Program-made: the position numbers and the translations under genes
In this document: piece after piece, positions 43,158 to 51,020 of the stretch
Numbering within the stretch: the first letter of the stretch is position 1
How the letters are laid out: each line of letters starts with the position of its first letter
NCBI GenBank assembly: GCA_029268515.1
Contig: JAQWNP010000001.1
Span: 248,001-312,000 of the forward strand
Direction of reading: 5' to 3'
DNA: 64,000 nt
Origin: Phycisphaerales bacterium
GTDB lineage: Bacteria; Planctomycetota; Phycisphaerae; Phycisphaerales; SM1A02
Notes under the pieces: generated by a model
Told to the model about the DNA's origin: nothing
The model's database searches: none
Seen by the model: the letters and a program-made list of their open reading frames with translations, nothing else

Positions 43158-45653
43158 TTAGGGTGATGGTGGATACTTGTTGACCAAACGCACAAAAGCC
43201 TCCTCGAAAACAAGCGCACCCAATCCGCCATCAATGAGCCGGAGCTGATTGACGCGTGGCGCGATTTGCCCAGTATTTCGACCCGCTCGATCTAGTATTT
43301 GCAACGTTCGAAGTTGGCCTAGCCAGAAAAGATCTTCTTGAGATGGTGTCGGAGGACTATTGATCGAAGCACTAATTTGCTTGTAGTACGCCAGTGATGC
43401 TGTCAGTTCTTTGACCTGATCTTGACTTAAGTGACTTCCACTAAGTCGCCACAAACTCTCAGCCAGCCCGAACACCAAATCGCGATCCTTTGGAGACGCT
43501 TTAACGAGTTCTTGATAGGCCAACACAGCTTGATCAAAGCGGCCTGCGACAAGCAATAGTCTTGCAAGCTGACGTCGCCCCGCTTCTGATAATTCAATGT
43601 CCTGCCCAGCCACCTCATACACCGTTTCAACGAGATCTTGATAGGGCACGAGCGGCAGTTCTTCTTCAACAAGTTGCCTAGCATTGAGCCGCTGCCCCTC
43701 AGCAGCACTCGATTTCATCTCTCTCAATTGCTCAAGCAAAGCCATCGCAGCGTAAAGATCACCTGCTACCAGCAGCTGCATTGCCTCGTTTGCTTTTGCA
43801 TGGTCCCCAAGATCGAGATTACCCAAAACAATAAAAGACAACGCCGCACTATCAATTGGCTCAATTTGATGTACCTGATGAAGCGCCTCTTTGGTTCGAC
43901 CCAGGGCCAGAAGTCGCTCCGCATTGCCGAGCGTCAGCCGACGGCGCCATACGCTCATATCACTCTGATCTGACTCTAGCTGCTCAAGTTCAGCCAGTGC
44001 TTCTTCAAGCACTTGATCAACTTGTTCGGCATTAAGAACTCCATTACCAGAACTCGCCAGAATGGCCGAAGCTCGAAGATATGACTGTTCCACCGCATAG
44101 TCCTGGCCTGTCATACTTGCTGTGTGCGCCAAAACATCTTCGTTTCTGCCTTCCACGAGTGCCAAACGAGCAGCCTCAACCCGCCAGCGGTTCACTTGAG
44201 GAAGCTCCTGATCTTTGATCGCCAGAGAGAGCGCCTTGCGAAAAAGCAGCTGCGCCTGATTGTCCTCTGGCCGCGATGCTGCGTATGTCAGTGCCGATTC
44301 CAACGCAAGAGAGAATGCCTGGAGACGAGCCTGATTCCTCGGTTCTTGTTGCGTTCGCTGAAGTAACAGCTCAATCCCCTGCTCAGTCCGATCTTGCGCT
44401 AACGCTAAACGACCCAAAATCTCAAGGGCACGAGCATGATCTTCTACGGTCAAATCATCACGTGTCAGCAGTGCTTCCAAATCCAACCTTGCCCCAGTGA
44501 ATGAAGTTGGATCTTGAGACCGACTGAGCCCTCTTGCTAAAAGAGCCGTCGGGAGCATTGACGCTCTGCCTTGCTCCTTGATGGCCAGCGACTGTTTCAT
44601 CACTAATCGATTCAAGGCCTGCTCAGCGAGTTCCAAGTGCCCGATGTCAAAAGCTTGATGACGCAACTTTACGTATGCGAGATCAGGATCTCTTCTCTCC
44701 GCAACCAAAACACGGTAGATCAGATCAGCCGCCAACAAAGATTCTGCATTGGTTTTCGCTGTTTCAACTGCCTTTACAGCAGATGCACGAGCTTGCGTTA
44801 GTTCACCGAGTTCCAGTTGTGCGAGACCCTCAATTAAGAGGCCTCTCAATTGATACTGAATATCTTCTCGCTGCGGCGCCTGACCAAATCTAAGGCCAAG
44901 CACCTCCAACGCTTCTCGTGGCCGATCAAGCTCAAGGAGCGCTTGTGCAAGATAGATTCGAGCTTCATCCGCCCAATCTGAGGCAAGAACATCCAGCAGC
45001 TCTTCGAGCAAGAGAACTGCCTCCTGAAGAAGTGATTGGCGGTCAGCGGGCTGATTAACAATTGCATGGGCAATTGCAGAAAAACTCCAGATCAACTGAG
45101 CCCTTTGATCTCGATGTAATTGGGCGAGCGAACGCCTAAGACGTCGCATGTCAACATCGGAAGCAAATTGGCGATCGCCCTCTAGTTTGATAATGGCGTC
45201 ATCAATCGCTTGCTTGGCTTGGACCGCAGCGATGTACATCTTGGCTGCGGTTTTTTCTGCTGCTTTTTGCTGAAGCTCTGTTGGCCAGCCAAGCAGCACC
45301 GTGTCGCCTGACCTACCAAGATTCCATTCATAGATAAACATATCAAGAGCATGGTCAATTTTCATAACCGCTCGTTTTGATTGCAGCTGCCATTGGTTTT
45401 GAGTTGATGGCTGAACCGCATTCTCAATCACAGCTTGCCTAAACGCCATCATCTCTCGGTAGGCTGAGATGCGTTCATCAGCAGATCGATTTGGATCATC
45501 AAGTACTTGCTTTGATTCTTTGATGTGCTGGGTGAGCTCATCCCATTGATCAGATTGTGCGTCAACAGACTGCCAAAGACTTAACAGCACCAATAACATG
45601 ATTGCCGCTAAGACTGGACGAACGCTCCAACATACAATCAACCGTGTGCTCAT
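43158..45653 (-). CDS. Secreted TPR-rich protein, last gene of the vWA/ExbB/ExbD operon
   Basis: An 831-residue protein with a signal peptide (VRPVLAAIMLLVLLSLWQSVDA) and repeated TPR-like helical pairs throughout, for example LVNQPADRQSLLQEAVLLLEEL-type segments, ADEARIYLAQALLELDRPREALEVLG and ARLLLVAGRFDQAVLAYQELVKASP near the C-terminus. It overlaps the upstream ExbD gene by four bases (start 45653, ExbD stop 45650). Being exported and helical, it probably binds partners in the periplasm. No enzymatic domain is visible. Confidence 0.75.
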   Translation of the reverse strand: MSTRLIVCWSVRPVLAAIMLLVLLSLWQSVDAQSDQWDELTQHIKESKQVLDDPNRSADERISAYREMMAFRQAVIENAVQPSTQNQWQLQSKRAVMKIDHALDMFIYEWNLGRSGDTVLLGWPTELQQKAAEKTAAKMYIAAVQAKQAIDDAIIKLEGDRQFASDVDMRRLRRSLAQLHRDQRAQLIWSFSAIAHAIVNQPADRQSLLQEAVLLLEELLDVLASDWADEARIYLAQALLELDRPREALEVLGLRFGQAPQREDIQYQLRGLLIEGLAQLELGELTQARASAVKAVETAKTNAESLLAADLIYRVLVAERRDPDLAYVKLRHQAFDIGHLELAEQALNRLVMKQSLAIKEQGRASMLPTALLARGLSRSQDPTSFTGARLDLEALLTRDDLTVEDHARALEILGRLALAQDRTEQGIELLLQRTQQEPRNQARLQAFSLALESALTYAASRPEDNQAQLLFRKALSLAIKDQELPQVNRWRVEAARLALVEGRNEDVLAHTASMTGQDYAVEQSYLRASAILASSGNGVLNAEQVDQVLEEALAELEQLESDQSDMSVWRRRLTLGNAERLLALGRTKEALHQVHQIEPIDSAALSFIVLGNLDLGDHAKANEAMQLLVAGDLYAAMALLEQLREMKSSAAEGQRLNARQLVEEELPLVPYQDLVETVYEVAGQDIELSEAGRRQLARLLLVAGRFDQAVLAYQELVKASPKDRDLVFGLAESLWRLSGSHLSQDQVKELTASLAYYKQISASINSPPTPSQEDLFWLGQLRTLQILDRAGRNTGQIAPRVNQLRLIDGGLGALVFEEAFVRLVNKYPPSP

Positions 45654-46132
45654 GAATCGGAACCCTGAAAGCTAATGTTCGTGTATCCAGCAAGCGCTGG
45701 CGCGTTAAACACTTCAATAACATGGCCCCACCGCGCTTGCGGTAATGGATCAATGAGAATTGGATGATCAGCCTTGAATAGCCCATAAGGGTTCGCAACG
45801 CTAATCTTGCGTTTCTTTAGCATCTCCGCCAGTTCATGCGGATTGACAATCTCTGGGTATGGGCCTTTCAGTTGTATCACCAGATCTTGAGGCTCAGTAC
45901 CAATAGATCGTACGGTCACAATCAAGGGCATTTCATCTAACTCAAATGGGTCCGGTGCAACAGCACCCTCACGCACTGGCAAATCCAGCTTGTAGATTTC
46001 TTCTCCCTCTGTGAAATCCGTTGCCACCATAAAGTAGACCAATAAAAGAAAAACAACATCAATCATTGAGGTCAGGTTTAACCCAAGACGAGCTTTACTT
46101 CGATGTTTTCGTCTGGCAGGAGGAATGCTCAT
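45650..46132 (-). CDS. ExbD/TolR-family biopolymer transport protein (copy 2)
   Basis: A 160-residue single-span protein. The N-terminus is basic, then LTSMIDVVFLLLVYFMVATDF carries the conserved Asp (D24) that binds protons in ExbD/TolR. The periplasmic domain (about residues 60-160) is ExbD-like but includes a long loop with PYPEIVNPHELAEMLKK. It is linked on both sides by four-base overlaps (46129-46132 with ExbD copy 1, 45650-45653 with the TPR gene), so the operon is tight. Confidence 0.88.
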   Translation of the reverse strand: MSIPPARRKHRSKARLGLNLTSMIDVVFLLLVYFMVATDFTEGEEIYKLDLPVREGAVAPDPFELDEMPLIVTVRSIGTEPQDLVIQLKGPYPEIVNPHELAEMLKKRKISVANPYGLFKADHPILIDPLPQARWGHVIEVFNAPALAGYTNISFQGSDS

Positions 46133-46590
46133 GGTGCTTCCTCATTAATGATCACAAGATTTAATCGAACCGGTGCCTCAAGATCATTGCGTTCCATTGC
46201 TTCTAAAGCGGACAACAACACTGACACGTATCGATATCGTGTCGATCGATCTGCCCGTAAGCTAATCGCTGCAATTGGTTGGCGAATGAGCTGGCCTCGC
46301 ACGATTTCGACAAGTTCTCTGGCACCTTGAGGAGATGCATCCACAAACGATGCTTGCATTTTGTAACCAATAGCTGAACCATCGGGACCAGGCACAACAT
46401 TAATCACAAGCCGAGCTTCATCTTCTGGACGTTCTGTTGCAGCATCTGCAGGACGTGGCAACTCCATTGCCACTGAATCAAAATCAACCAACCGTGACAC
46501 CAATACAAAAAACACGATCAAGAGAAAGACCACGTCAATCATTGGTGTAAGGTTGGCGTTGATTTCAGCGGGACGACGCCTCATGCCCAC
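46129..46590 (-). CDS. ExbD/TolR-family biopolymer transport protein (copy 1)
   Basis: A 153-residue ExbD/TolR protein. Its membrane segment LTPMIDVVFLLIVFFVL has the proton-carrying Asp at residue 19. The periplasmic domain contains ISLRADRSTRYRYVSVLLSALE, a standard ExbD strand-helix element. It follows the ExbB-like gene by 40 bp and overlaps the second ExbD gene by four bases. Two different ExbD proteins with one ExbB would give a heteromeric stator; the second copy differs in the periplasmic part, suggesting separate partners. Confidence 0.9.
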   Translation of the reverse strand: MGMRRRPAEINANLTPMIDVVFLLIVFFVLVSRLVDFDSVAMELPRPADAATERPEDEARLVINVVPGPDGSAIGYKMQASFVDASPQGARELVEIVRGQLIRQPIAAISLRADRSTRYRYVSVLLSALEAMERNDLEAPVRLNLVIINEEAP

Positions 46591-46630
46591 GCTCCTGTTA
46601 TCGAGAAAATAATGTTACCCAGGCCGAACC

Positions 46631-47455
46631 TCAATCGACTGCTTCCTTACCTGTCTCAGAATTCGTCTCACCGCCAGAACGCAAGACATTGGACTTTCGC
46701 GTGCGGGGTCGGAATGTATTAATGACTTCCTCTGCGCGCAGTGTGGCATCGACGGTCAGTTCATCAATACGGTTACGGAGAAATGCATAGCCTGCTAACG
46801 CGGGAATCGCGACGACAAGTCCCCAAAACGTTGTGGTGAGGGCGGTGCCAATGCCACCTGCAAGAAGTACTGGATCAGCACTCCCTCCACCGATGACGAT
46901 GGCCTGGAATGCCAGGATCATTCCATACACAGTTCCGAACAAACCAATCATGGGACTCACCTGGCCAAGCACATTGAGAAATTCCACACGCCTCATTCGT
47001 ACCGTGGTTAACTCATCTGCCGTCTGTTCAAGACTTCGAATCATCGCAGAAAAGCCACCTGGTGCTTCGCGAAGACCTGCATGTAGTGTTTGGCAGAAAA
47101 AGGGCTCTTGTCCACTGAGCTCATTAAGCAGTGATTGATAATCATGATTCTCCACAAGACGACGCGATTGCTTCAGCCACTTGTCTGGAATCAAGAGAGC
47201 CCGTCGATTGGCCAGTCCCAAGACAATGATCAAACCAATACTTACGATCGATAGACATAAAAGAAACCAGATAATGACGCTCCCCAATAACTCTATTGAG
47301 CCATCAGCATTACGCGATATAAAAAACGCAGCACCAAAGCTCTCAGAAGAAACGTCAATGACTGTGGCATCCTCACCAAACACTGATGATGATCCAATCA
47401 GTCCGATTCCGAAACACATCAATACCGAATAGTTCAATAGAAATTTTGTCATCAC
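46631..47455 (-). CDS. ExbB/TolQ/MotA-family proton channel protein
   Basis: A 274-residue inner-membrane protein with an N-terminal leader-like hydrophobic segment, then the three ExbB membrane helices: IIWFLLCLSIVSIGLIIVLG, QVSPMIGLFGTVYGMILAF and GIGTALTTTFWGLVVAIPAL. The latter two match the MotA/TolQ/ExbB pore. The cytosolic loop between the first and second helices contains AGLREAPGGFSAMIRSLEQ. With ExbD it should harness the proton gradient. Its start overlaps the vWA gene's stop by four bases. Confidence 0.92.
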   Translation of the reverse strand: MMTKFLLNYSVLMCFGIGLIGSSSVFGEDATVIDVSSESFGAAFFISRNADGSIELLGSVIIWFLLCLSIVSIGLIIVLGLANRRALLIPDKWLKQSRRLVENHDYQSLLNELSGQEPFFCQTLHAGLREAPGGFSAMIRSLEQTADELTTVRMRRVEFLNVLGQVSPMIGLFGTVYGMILAFQAIVIGGGSADPVLLAGGIGTALTTTFWGLVVAIPALAGYAFLRNRIDELTVDATLRAEEVINTFRPRTRKSNVLRSGGETNSETGKEAVD

Positions 47456-48480
47456 TGACGGCCCTCCAATTCAGCGGCATCAAGAAATTTGAAGGCACCT
47501 GGCCCACCGTGAATATCCGCAATATGTTCGAGCGTATTCAATGGATCTGGGTGCAAGAACTGAATACACATGATCTTTGTGACTCTTTGGTCAGAACCTG
47601 GACGGATCGGATTTGCCTCTTCAAGCATTTTCAATAGCACATCACGGTCAACTTCATAAATACTCTCGCCTGTAATATTGTCACTCAGCAAGAAAATCAC
47701 ATCGGGATTTAATGAAATTGCTTTCTGAAGCGCGTCCATTGGATTTGATGATTTACCAGGAAAAACATGAGCATCGATCCATTCAAGTGCCCGTTGTTTA
47801 TTTTCTGGTGTTGCCGGCACAAGACTATTTCTTGGAGGGACCATGACAGCAGTATCTTCTTGAAAAAAAATGATTCCGAAATTCTGCTCGAAGTCGAGAC
47901 CCTTAAGCGAACGAGCCAACTCATCAATAACAAGTGAAAAAAGTGAGAGCATTGAGCCTGATGCATCAATCACAAAGGTGACCCGTTTTACATTGGTGCC
48001 TCTCAGTCCACCAAAGGAAGCATCCAACTCCGTGGCCTGCTCTATAAAGTCCATTGCGGGCTTTCCGTCAACCGGTACCAAGTCCGTGGTCCTTTCAGGT
48101 GACAGTTCCGCAATTGCTTGCTGCTGCAACTGAGCTTTAGATAACCGCTCTTGGTTTGACTGGGGCAGACTTGCGTCCTCTTGTGGCGGCACCCGATCAT
48201 CTGCCGGCGCTTCGATGAGCGGTATATAGGCTGGCATATCGAATGTGGCATTGATAACGGGTCGAGGCACCTCATCTGGCGTAGCCACCACCGCCCAAGT
48301 CACAAAAAATGCGATCAAAATGAGGCCGAGGTGTATCGCAATCGAGATCGTCCAGCCAAACATCGGCGAGTGGGTCTGTTTCGATAGCAACTGATCACTG
48401 TCAACGTGCTGTGAACCCACACGATCGGCGTATTCTTGATCGAATTTCGACTGTGAGCCAGATGCTCCGTCTTTGCCCAT
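47452..48480 (-). CDS. Membrane-anchored von Willebrand factor A protein of the ExbB/ExbD operon
   Basis: A 342-residue protein from the ATG at 48480, which has GGAAGG seven bases upstream (a longer in-frame TTG start exists). A cytosolic part of about 40 residues precedes one membrane helix (GWTISIAIHLGLILIAFFVTW), then a Pro/Gln-rich linker and a vWA domain starting with VTFVIDASGSM: the MIDAS residues DASGS are intact (about D172, S174, S176), with SSNPMDAL and LLSDNITGES completing the site. The layout, a single TM then an extracytoplasmic domain, mirrors TonB or TolA. It is the first gene of the five-gene operon. Confidence 0.85.
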   Translation of the reverse strand: MGKDGASGSQSKFDQEYADRVGSQHVDSDQLLSKQTHSPMFGWTISIAIHLGLILIAFFVTWAVVATPDEVPRPVINATFDMPAYIPLIEAPADDRVPPQEDASLPQSNQERLSKAQLQQQAIAELSPERTTDLVPVDGKPAMDFIEQATELDASFGGLRGTNVKRVTFVIDASGSMLSLFSLVIDELARSLKGLDFEQNFGIIFFQEDTAVMVPPRNSLVPATPENKQRALEWIDAHVFPGKSSNPMDALQKAISLNPDVIFLLSDNITGESIYEVDRDVLLKMLEEANPIRPGSDQRVTKIMCIQFLHPDPLNTLEHIADIHGGPGAFKFLDAAELEGRQ

Positions 48481-48626
48481 GCGGTTGCCTTCCATAGCAA
48501 GTGCCACGCTGCGGCTTCGTGCCAATGGCAGTCTATCAGCCAATCAACGACACTCTTGCCAACATGGGCCAAGCACTGAATGTGGCAATTCGCCAATAAT
48601 GCCGCGCTTTACCTAGAGCGATGCAA

Positions 48627-49385
48627 TTATTCGGCTTCTGGCGGTTGGGCCTCAGGTTTGGGTCGGTCCTTTGCAAACAACACTGAGTCCAGGCTCACTG
48701 GACCGGCGCCAGTGAAGAAAACACCAATTGCCAGAACGAACAAAGCAGCTTGAGCAAACATTGCGTTGTAGGCATCCATGGCATCAGCCCATTGAAATGG
48801 ATTACTTAAAAACAGTCCGTTATCGTGAATCGAGACCACATAAAAGGTACCACCAATAATGACCGCCAAACAAAGCGCCCAAAGCCTTGTAATCAACCCC
48901 AACAAAATTAACGCACCGCCAACAAGCTCAACCCAGGCCACCACTTTGGCGAGCCAGATTGAAGTCTCGCCCCAACCCGCATCAATCATCTGCAGAGAAA
49001 GCAGGTAATAACCCGTTGTCTGATAGTGAGTGCCATCATGCGTCGGTGCTGCAACTGAAATCGTTGGTGGCACTGCTGGCGTACTCTGTGTAGCTGGTGT
49101 TTCAGAGGGCGTCACTGGGGGCTTCGCTGGGGGGTCAGCGGCAGGTTCGGTAGTCTCCTGCCAGAATGCCGTTTGATGGATCATTGGCTGCAAAGTCGAA
49201 GAAACCTGCTTTGCCTGGCCTGTCTCCACAGGTACGCCATATTGCTCAAGAGCGTCCCGTTGCTCCTGAGTGATATGAATAGTCCCGAAGACATAACCCC
49301 ATCCAGCACTGAAAAAAGCGCCAAAAAGGACGATTCGGGCAAGTATTGGTAGTAATTTGGTTCCGGCACAAGCACTAAGCGACAT
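48627..49385 (-). CDS. DoxX-family membrane protein with Pro-rich insertion
   Basis: A 252-residue four-helix membrane protein. The first helix (ILARIVLFGAFFSAGWGYVFG) is followed by a long hydrophilic insertion of about 80 residues, rich in Pro, Thr and Ala. The later helices (VVAWVELVGGALILLGLITRLWAL, IIGGTFYVV, and AQAALFVLAIGVFFTG) are typical DoxX. A GGAG eight bases before the ATG supports this start. DoxX proteins vary in role (quinone-related oxidoreductases, thiol homeostasis); the present function is unknown. It precedes the vWA operon by 146 bp on the same strand. Confidence 0.8.
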   Translation of the reverse strand: MSLSACAGTKLLPILARIVLFGAFFSAGWGYVFGTIHITQEQRDALEQYGVPVETGQAKQVSSTLQPMIHQTAFWQETTEPAADPPAKPPVTPSETPATQSTPAVPPTISVAAPTHDGTHYQTTGYYLLSLQMIDAGWGETSIWLAKVVAWVELVGGALILLGLITRLWALCLAVIIGGTFYVVSIHDNGLFLSNPFQWADAMDAYNAMFAQAALFVLAIGVFFTGAGPVSLDSVLFAKDRPKPEAQPPEAE

Positions 49386-49467: not shown

Positions 49468-49490
49468 CTTCCCCTCTCGCTTAGACCCCT

Positions 49491-49572
<82 letters not shown>

Positions 49573-49664
49573 TTTTTCTGGTCATTTTCTTTGGCTCCAA
49601 ACCTAAAAATTTTCCTTCTTTCTCACTGTGCCCCAATATTTCTCCGGATAGGACGAAAATTCAT

Positions 49665-51020
49665 ATGACTGGCTGGAGCCCCAAATCATGGCAGCACAAG
49701 CGTGCCCTACAGCAACCAACTTATCCAGACAAGAATCATCTTGATCAGGTCGTTGGACAATTAGCTGAGCTGCCACCACTGGTGAGCTCCTGGGAAATCG
49801 AAACGCTTAAAACACAACTGGCCGAAGCAGCCGCCGGTGATCGCTTCCTCCTTCAGGGAGGGGATTGCGCTGAACGTTTTAGAGATTGCCAACCAGAAGT
49901 CATTGCTGCAAAATTAAAAGTGCTGCTTCAAATGAGCCTGGTGCTTGTTCACGGAACCAAGCGTCGTGTTATTCGTGTTGGGCGATTTGCCGGACAATAT
50001 GCAAAACCACGATCAAGCGATACCGAAACAAAAGATGGAATCACGCTCCCAGCCTATCGCGGCGACATCATCAATGAGCATGCATTTGAACAAAACGCGC
50101 GTACTCCAAATCCAGATCTTCTCTTGCGTGGTTTCGAGCGAGCAGCGCTGACATTGAACTTTATTCGTGCGCTGATTGATGGTGGTTTTGCGAGCTTGCA
50201 TCACCCCGAATACTGGGACCTTGACTTTGTCGAGCACTCATCCCAAGGAACTGAATACCAACATGTGGTTGAGTCGATTGGCGAATCACTTCGCTTTATG
50301 GAAACACTTTGCGGCGTCCCAATCAGTGACATGAACCGTGTTGATTTCTTTACAAGCCACGAAGCCCTCCACCTTTCATACGAAGAGGCGCTGACTCGAA
50401 CTGTGCCACGTCGAGAGGGCTGGTACGACCTATCGACCCATTTTCCTTGGCTTGGACTAAGAACATCACAGCTTGATGGCGCTCATATTGAATTTCTACG
50501 CGGCATCCGAAACCCACTGGCGATCAAAGTGGGGCCGAATATGGCCCTGGATGAGATTCATCCTTATATCGAAGCACTTTTCAATGTTCTTCACCCAGAC
50601 AATGAACCTGGCCGAATCACCATTATCCATCGCTACGGTATCGACCAGGTCTCTGAATATTTACCTGTTCTGATTGATGCGGTCCAAAAAACAGGCAAGA
50701 GTGTCCTCTACTGCTGTGATCCAATGCATGGCAACACACAAATCTCAAGTGGCGGACTCAAGACACGCCGGTTTGACCACATCCTTGAAGAAGTAGACCG
50801 CGCCTTCGAACTGCATAGTGCTGGCGGCTCTCGACTTGGCGGTGTTCATGTTGAATTGACCGGCGACAACGTGACTGAGTGCACTGGTGGCGCAAGAGGC
50901 CTTCAAGATGCTGATCTCACACAAGCCTATAAAACACAAGTTGATCCAAGACTTAACTATGAACAAGCGTTCGAATTAGCGCTGCTTGTTGCCCGTCGGG
51001 CTTCCCAAGACAACGTCTAA
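49665..51020 (+). CDS. Class II 3-deoxy-D-arabino-heptulosonate 7-phosphate synthase
   Basis: The first enzyme of the shikimate pathway, condensing PEP and erythrose 4-phosphate. It belongs to the plant-type class II family: WSPKSWQHKRALQQPTYPD near the start, FLLQGGDCAERF, RVGRFAGQYAKPRS, PLAIKVGPNM, CDPMHGNT and HVELTGDNVTECTGG are all family signatures. From the ATG at 49665 it has 451 residues, as expected; the frame is open upstream through the tRNA but that is not coding. Its stop overlaps the ZIP gene's stop, tail to tail, by four bases. Confidence 0.95.
   Translation: MTGWSPKSWQHKRALQQPTYPDKNHLDQVVGQLAELPPLVSSWEIETLKTQLAEAAAGDRFLLQGGDCAERFRDCQPEVIAAKLKVLLQMSLVLVHGTKRRVIRVGRFAGQYAKPRSSDTETKDGITLPAYRGDIINEHAFEQNARTPNPDLLLRGFERAALTLNFIRALIDGGFASLHHPEYWDLDFVEHSSQGTEYQHVVESIGESLRFMETLCGVPISDMNRVDFFTSHEALHLSYEEALTRTVPRREGWYDLSTHFPWLGLRTSQLDGAHIEFLRGIRNPLAIKVGPNMALDEIHPYIEALFNVLHPDNEPGRITIIHRYGIDQVSEYLPVLIDAVQKTGKSVLYCCDPMHGNTQISSGGLKTRRFDHILEEVDRAFELHSAGGSRLGGVHVELTGDNVTECTGGARGLQDADLTQAYKTQVDPRLNYEQAFELALLVARRASQDNV

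Follow-up and report, generated by a model that had tools for sequence, protein, structure and literature searches.

The 64,000-nucleotide window analyzed here, from a Phycisphaerales bacterium (contig JAQWNP010000001.1), carries a five-gene operon on its minus strand. In order, the genes encode a membrane-anchored von Willebrand factor A (vWA) protein, an ExbB/TolQ-like subunit, two ExbD/TolR-like subunits (ExbD-a and ExbD-b), and a tetratricopeptide repeat (TPR) protein. We think it probable that these genes form a TolA/TonB-like force-transducer operon of a vWA type, in which a proton motor would pull the vWA protein on a periplasmic partner. An earlier note on this DNA had listed the same five genes, and all of them were indeed found on a single strand, with support from Pfam and from predicted folds.

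The vWA protein, its motor and the TPR protein

The vWA protein scores 0.4 bits below the cut-off of its Pfam family (PF13519, E 9.8e-6). Its AlphaFold2 model (43-row alignment, mean predicted local distance difference test score [pLDDT] 79.3) contains a single long transmembrane (TM) helix at residues ~39–66, with Ser46 and His50, and a well-predicted vWA domain at ~153–340. The best matches of the model in the PDB were the vWA domains of inter-alpha-inhibitor heavy chains (Z 19.2, root-mean-square deviation 2.2 over 164–168 residues). Thus, the vWA identity holds despite the sub-threshold Pfam score, because the predicted fold matches vWA domains. The linker of ~85 residues is disordered (ten-residue blocks 81–150, mean pLDDT 49–57), and a three-residue strand at 78–80 follows the TM helix, a candidate for the published "motor box" (block mean pLDDT 69). 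The TonB/TolA topology that had been claimed is therefore borne out by the model, which shows the N-terminus, one TM helix, the linker, and the C-terminal domain; no TonB or TolA family was matched in this protein at E 0.01 in Pfam.

Conservation was counted in 93 distinct gene clusters (103 before repeats were removed). Ser46 of the vWA TM helix is kept in 90 clusters and His50 in 92. The conserved positions of this helix tend to one face (moment 0.349 versus a shuffle mean of 0.171, p = 0.014 by position shuffling), and Trp62 lies off that face. In the motor subunits, Thr175 and Thr209 of ExbB are kept in 93/93 clusters, as are the TM aspartate of ExbD-a and that of ExbD-b. The two ExbD proteins are only distantly alike (35% identity over 65 residues).

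The second loop of a metal-ion-dependent adhesion site (MIDAS) usually provides a threonine. The MIDAS of the vWA protein had been described as intact, which is true of its DASGS motif and of loop 3, where Asp267 is present, but loop 2 has Ser245 in place of the usual threonine. Across the clusters, the first motif is near invariant (Asp172 in 93/93; Ser174 in 92/93, with Thr in the remaining one; Ser176 in 92/93), and at position 245, Ser occurs in 69 clusters and Thr in 19. Asp267 is kept in only 40/93 and replaced by Glu in 18. This variability tells against an adhesion role, and none of the results points to an extracellular vWA domain. The long linker and the neighboring, probably periplasmic TPR protein make a partner in the periplasm, for instance the TPR protein itself, likelier than an adhesion target. 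Thus, the earlier idea of a proton-driven stator with a vWA partner gains from the comparison (the TM Ser/His pair, the gene order described below, and a 2025 publication on homologues, PMC12204202), but its adhesion part does not. On sequence comparison, the coupling of the motor to the vWA protein appears well supported.

The TPR protein matches TPR_14 above the Pfam cut-off and TPR_16 at 1.2 bits under it (E 2.4e-7). Its predicted structure is entirely helical (30-row alignment, mean pLDDT 81.6); a fold search with it returned generic TPR solenoids only (TM-scores ≤0.35) and was uninformative. By eye, the N-terminus is hydrophobic and resembles a signal peptide, and the protein is probably periplasmic. 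TPR proteins of the family also share a C-terminal stretch beyond the repeats (W777, the LQILD..GRNT..IAPRV region, and G812), a candidate docking site.

Conservation of the operon in related genomes

We searched 61 genomes of one order (this one and 60 relatives) and found a match to the vWA protein in 58 (E 1e-3). Loci were taken from 55 genomes, omitting G011, G015, and G018 (no match) and G001, G006, and G026 (weak matches). With purpose-built profiles, the order was called as vWA(-vWA)(-x)-ExbB-ExbD-ExbD(-ExbD)-TPR on one strand with gaps ≤1.5 kb. It is complete in 41/61 genomes, 20 as in the window and 21 with a further gene, x, separating vWA from ExbB; 41 is a lower bound, because the profile for the last gene misses divergent TPR members (an 882-amino-acid [aa] open reading frame [ORF] at locus L060, and maybe G027 and G002). 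Kept in so many genomes, the gene order is far beyond chance. The idea of a conserved operon thus survives the check across relatives, with 14 of the 55 genomes as exceptions. In six of these, the f4 family, vWA is accompanied by x, and ExbB-ExbD-ExbD lie at another place in the genome, their ExbB being 51–56% identical to that of the window (6/6). Of the others, five belong to a family f2 discussed below, one locus is truncated near a contig end (G029), and two genomes lack a recognized TPR gene (G027 and G002).

Outside this set, a scan of named genomes gave at least 59 loci, mostly labeled Planctomycetota and mainly Phycisphaerae, some of whose contigs are shared with the 61-genome set. Among 23 loci beyond the order, five have the full order (L215, L216, L218, L220, and L227), three are partial with ExbB (L217, L221, and L228), and 15 have no motor in the cluster. 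Phylum-wide, 85/159 genomes match the vWA protein at E 1e-10; since 15 of the 23 outside loci are motorless, many of the weak phylum-wide matches are taken to be other vWA proteins.

Several observations weigh against a motor-driven vWA protein: (i) the SHLS motif, with the spacing it has in TonB, is not conserved in its last two residues, which are A57 and T61 here and mixed in the family; (ii) in an automatic scan, S-x3-H occurs near the TM helix in 104/118 vWA proteins with ExbB in the cluster and also in 29/42 without it, counts that keep locus repeats and include misses from truncated or mis-started ORFs and from proteins with Ala for Ser; (iii) the five f2 genomes have vWA-TPR without a close ExbB (L048, L051, L052, L053, and L055); and (iv) a genome of the same genus, G001 (89% complete), has only a weak vWA match (E 2.4e-10, 27% identity). 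From (ii), the motif marks the protein family and not motor adjacency. In the f2 loci, which lack a cognate motor, Ala replaces the last MIDAS serine in L048, L051, L052, and L053, and L055 keeps Ser; the TM Ser/His pair is retained in the four loci whose TM helix is in view. A loss of metal binding together with the motor is possible.

Could the vWA and TPR proteins form a unit of their own? They may be a scaffold like that of Bat (aerotolerance) operons, co-transcribed with a motor that serves something else, in which case the vWA protein would not be pulled. Bat operons hold vWA and TPR proteins and are defined by MoxR ATPase and DUF58 neighbors, and the DoxX family, encoded next to the operon, is tied to redox functions. 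The five f2 genomes, where vWA and TPR remain neighbors although no motor adjoins them, speak for such a scaffold. It is nonetheless unlikely in view of the near-invariant TM Ser/His pair, the position of the motor genes between vWA and TPR in 41/61 genomes, and the f4 genomes, where the motor is unlinked yet always present.

Companion genes and other systems in the genome

Coordinates are collected in Table 1. The four-base ATGA overlaps reported earlier exist at the ExbD/ExbD and ExbD/TPR junctions, but that of vWA and ExbB is GTGA if ExbB starts at its GTG, or a single base (TGATG) if it starts at the ATG at 47452. The gap from ExbB to ExbD-a is ~46 bases, and the vWA gene has a possible alternative start (TTG at 48543, 63 bases upstream of the ATG). 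Gaps are tight in homologous clusters as well: taking the earliest starts, that of ExbD-a/ExbD-b is ≤50 bases in 90/93 and that of ExbD-b/TPR in 72/78. Scans for promoters (4 sites) and terminators (8 sites) remained inside the shuffle range (5.3, sd 2.1, and 6.0, sd 2.5, respectively).

Table 1. Genes of the operon and the adjacent DoxX-family gene, in window coordinates.
Feature	Coordinates	Strand	Length	Basis and remarks
DoxX-family membrane protein, possible first operon gene	48627-49385	-	252 aa	Pfam PF07681 E 1.7e-8
vWA protein, TonB/TolA topology	47452-48480	-	342 aa from ATG	Pfam, AlphaFold2, residue conservation
ExbB/TolQ-like proton-channel subunit (putative)	46631-47455 (GTG start)	-	274 aa	Pfam PF01618 E 1.2e-25
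ExbD-a/TolR-like subunit	46129-46584 (ATG; GTG at 46590)	-		TM Asp17; Pfam PF02472 E 1.3e-14
ExbD-b/TolR-like subunit	45650-46132	-		TM Asp25; Pfam PF02472 E 1.7e-14
TPR solenoid protein	43158-45653	-	831 aa	Pfam TPR repeats; hydrophobic signal-peptide-like N-terminus; conserved C-terminal motif

The transcription unit may be larger than five genes, as a DoxX-family gene precedes vWA on the same strand. A DoxX homologue lies directly upstream of vWA, on the same strand and within 900 bases, in 65/135 distinct vWA loci (54 with ExbB in the cluster and 11 without), and it is retained in 6/6 f4 loci despite their unlinked motor. When the count is limited to loci with ≥4 kb of sequence upstream of vWA, DoxX adjoins vWA in 38/41 with a DAHP-synthase-like neighbor and in 15/69 without one. 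Mere synteny was considered and rejected as the explanation: much of the signal reflects a common neighborhood, but not all of it, as the 15 loci show. DoxX is likely an extra membrane partner of the vWA machine. Gene x of the 21 genomes mostly encodes proteins of 340–430 aa with an N-terminus that is hydrophobic by eye, one of four scanned having clear TPR matches; its product is probably secreted. Further upstream in the window, a tRNA-Leu (49490-49573) overlaps the GTG start of the listed ORF 49497-51020, which is DAHP-synthase-like by eye. Because the tRNA covers that start, the true one is probably further downstream.

Other loci of the same assembly resemble the operon. A full copy on contig C2 (L059, 74001-94000) was considered as a third system and set aside as a likely bin contaminant: C2 has a GC content of 57.3% versus 50–51% for the window and four other sampled contigs, and its tetranucleotide correlation with these is 0.68–0.75 (0.92–0.96 among themselves) but 0.93 with L049 of genome G035. 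C2 also carries a second DAHP-synthase-like gene, and the reported contamination of the genome is 4.18%. The C2 system is thus probably contamination, and it can no longer serve to argue that DoxX was duplicated together with a paralogue within one genome. A divergent second system on contig C14 (L060, 9767-19173) comprises vWA, a 380-aa protein, ExbB, two ExbDs, and the 882-aa ORF, which has weak TPR matches and is followed by a 1016-aa ORF without a Pfam match. Co-inheritance of the five proteins was also tried (distance correlations 0.54–0.81) and dropped as evidence, since a partner swap set apart only the divergent L060 system and exchanging the partners of the window with those of L059 changed little. 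On contig C17 (L063, 9772-11531), ExbB-like and ExbD-like genes accompany a 303-aa protein that has no match in Pfam and whose TM sequence reads ISVAVH; it may be a TonB-like transducer with an uncharacterized C-terminal domain.

Proposed mechanism and comparison with known systems

How would the motor act on the vWA protein? The stoichiometry we infer is five ExbB subunits enclosing a pair of ExbD helices, which may be mixed or both of the same kind, and proton passage at the ExbD aspartates would turn or strain this complex. The single TM helix of the vWA protein may dock on the outside of ExbB via Ser46 and His50, and the short motor-box strand after it may pair with ExbD. The disordered linker would then transmit force to the vWA domain, whose MIDAS would grip a periplasmic partner. 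The product of the last operon gene, the TPR protein, is the likeliest such partner and could in turn pass the pull to the outer membrane or the peptidoglycan.

A machine of this kind, with DoxX as a further part, could conceivably replace Tol-Pal in an order without detectable TolB, the grip of the MIDAS on the TPR protein then doing the work of TolA on TolB and Pal. The search for Tol parts covered TolB_N and neither Pal nor TolA; TolB_N was matched in 0/61 genomes, a result to be read with the facts that the Pfam model could miss a diverged TolB and that its control was positive in 3/14 genomes. We regard the replacement as quite unlikely: TolB_N is rare across the phylum (7 weak matches in 159 genomes), six relatives have no or only a weak vWA match, and G154, outside the order, combines the full vWA order (L227) with a TolB_N match, albeit a weak one (E 7.6e-4). 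No statement on Tol-Pal in Planctomycetes was found in the text of PMC8871954 as far as it was available. The 0/61 count raises the question of what energizes outer-membrane upkeep where Tol-Pal looks incomplete.

Alternatively, the operon could encode an energized adhesion or gliding machine similar to Myxococcus AglRQS-Glt, a likeness that PMC12204202 suggests for homologues. The parts list is indeed common, in that AglRQS-Glt as described in PMC3169522 has one TolQ-like subunit (aglR, PF01618), two TolR-like subunits (aglQ and aglS, PF02472), and several TPR proteins; the vWA fold with its conserved DxSxS would also suit adhesion. The TM partner in that system, GltG, carries a TonB domain (PMC3169522). 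The vWA protein of AglRQS-Glt, CglB, is an outer-membrane lipoprotein, whereas the vWA domain here has its anchor in the inner membrane. Among the six genes, Pfam recognizes no outer-membrane protein. The variable loop-3 MIDAS aspartate likewise makes gliding improbable, as does the full order in two genomes of ~2.0 Mb (G019 and G023), where a core role in the envelope is easier to expect than a lifestyle trait. A Ton-importer stand-in, moving substrates through an outer-membrane receptor, would fit the lack of a TonB_C match in this 99.5%-complete genome (Pfam profiles, which matched no TolB_N either) and is highly improbable, as a plug-bearing receptor was likewise not found in this genome and TonB_C co-occurs with the operon in relatives (27/61 genomes, 25 of them over the cut-off; 18 of the 27 belong to the 41 full-order genomes).

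The vWA force transducer favored here shares with TonB/TolA and their ExbBD/TolQR motors the topology, the motor subunits, and the TM Ser/His pair; it differs in its C-terminal domain, which is a vWA domain, and in having two different ExbDs. A coupling of this kind is not new: Williams-Jones et al. published the same reading in 2025 for Planctomycetes-Verrucomicrobia-Chlamydiae (PVC) bacteria, in which they describe vWA force transducers encoded together with one TolQ-like, two TolR-like, and one TPR gene, with AlphaFold3 models of homologues in which the TM helix is docked via the conserved His (PMC12204202). We found no other account of such an operon in the open-licence PMC literature: the available text of a study of MotAB diversity (PMC12505986) has no vWA protein, and in the part seen of a Rhodopirellula transcriptome (PMC2754498) a vWA gene and exbB/exbD appear separately.

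The closest relative is the first vWA family of PMC12204202, which, as here, has one TM helix with a conserved His, a disordered linker, and a C-terminal vWA domain, and whose TolQ-like gene, two unlike TolR-like genes, and TPR gene recur in PVC bacteria. The gene order differs: according to the text of that paper, vWA comes after TPR, tolQ, and the two tolR genes, whereas it precedes ExbB here. The second family, with a trans-pore helix, also has a TM-anchored vWA protein beside a TolQ-like gene, but that family lacks ExbD genes and carries an Asp in the TM helix of the vWA protein itself; in our operon, the two ExbDs carry the Asp and TM helix 39–66 has none. The terms "DoxX", "MIDAS", and "Phycisphaer" do not occur in the main text of PMC12204202, and no mention of a gene between vWA and tolQ was found in the text available. 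To a published family that rests on predicted structures, the present survey adds the distribution within one order, the separated vWA and motor loci, the residues that are kept or not, including those of the MIDAS, and two recurrent companions, the DoxX gene and the gene for a probably secreted protein.

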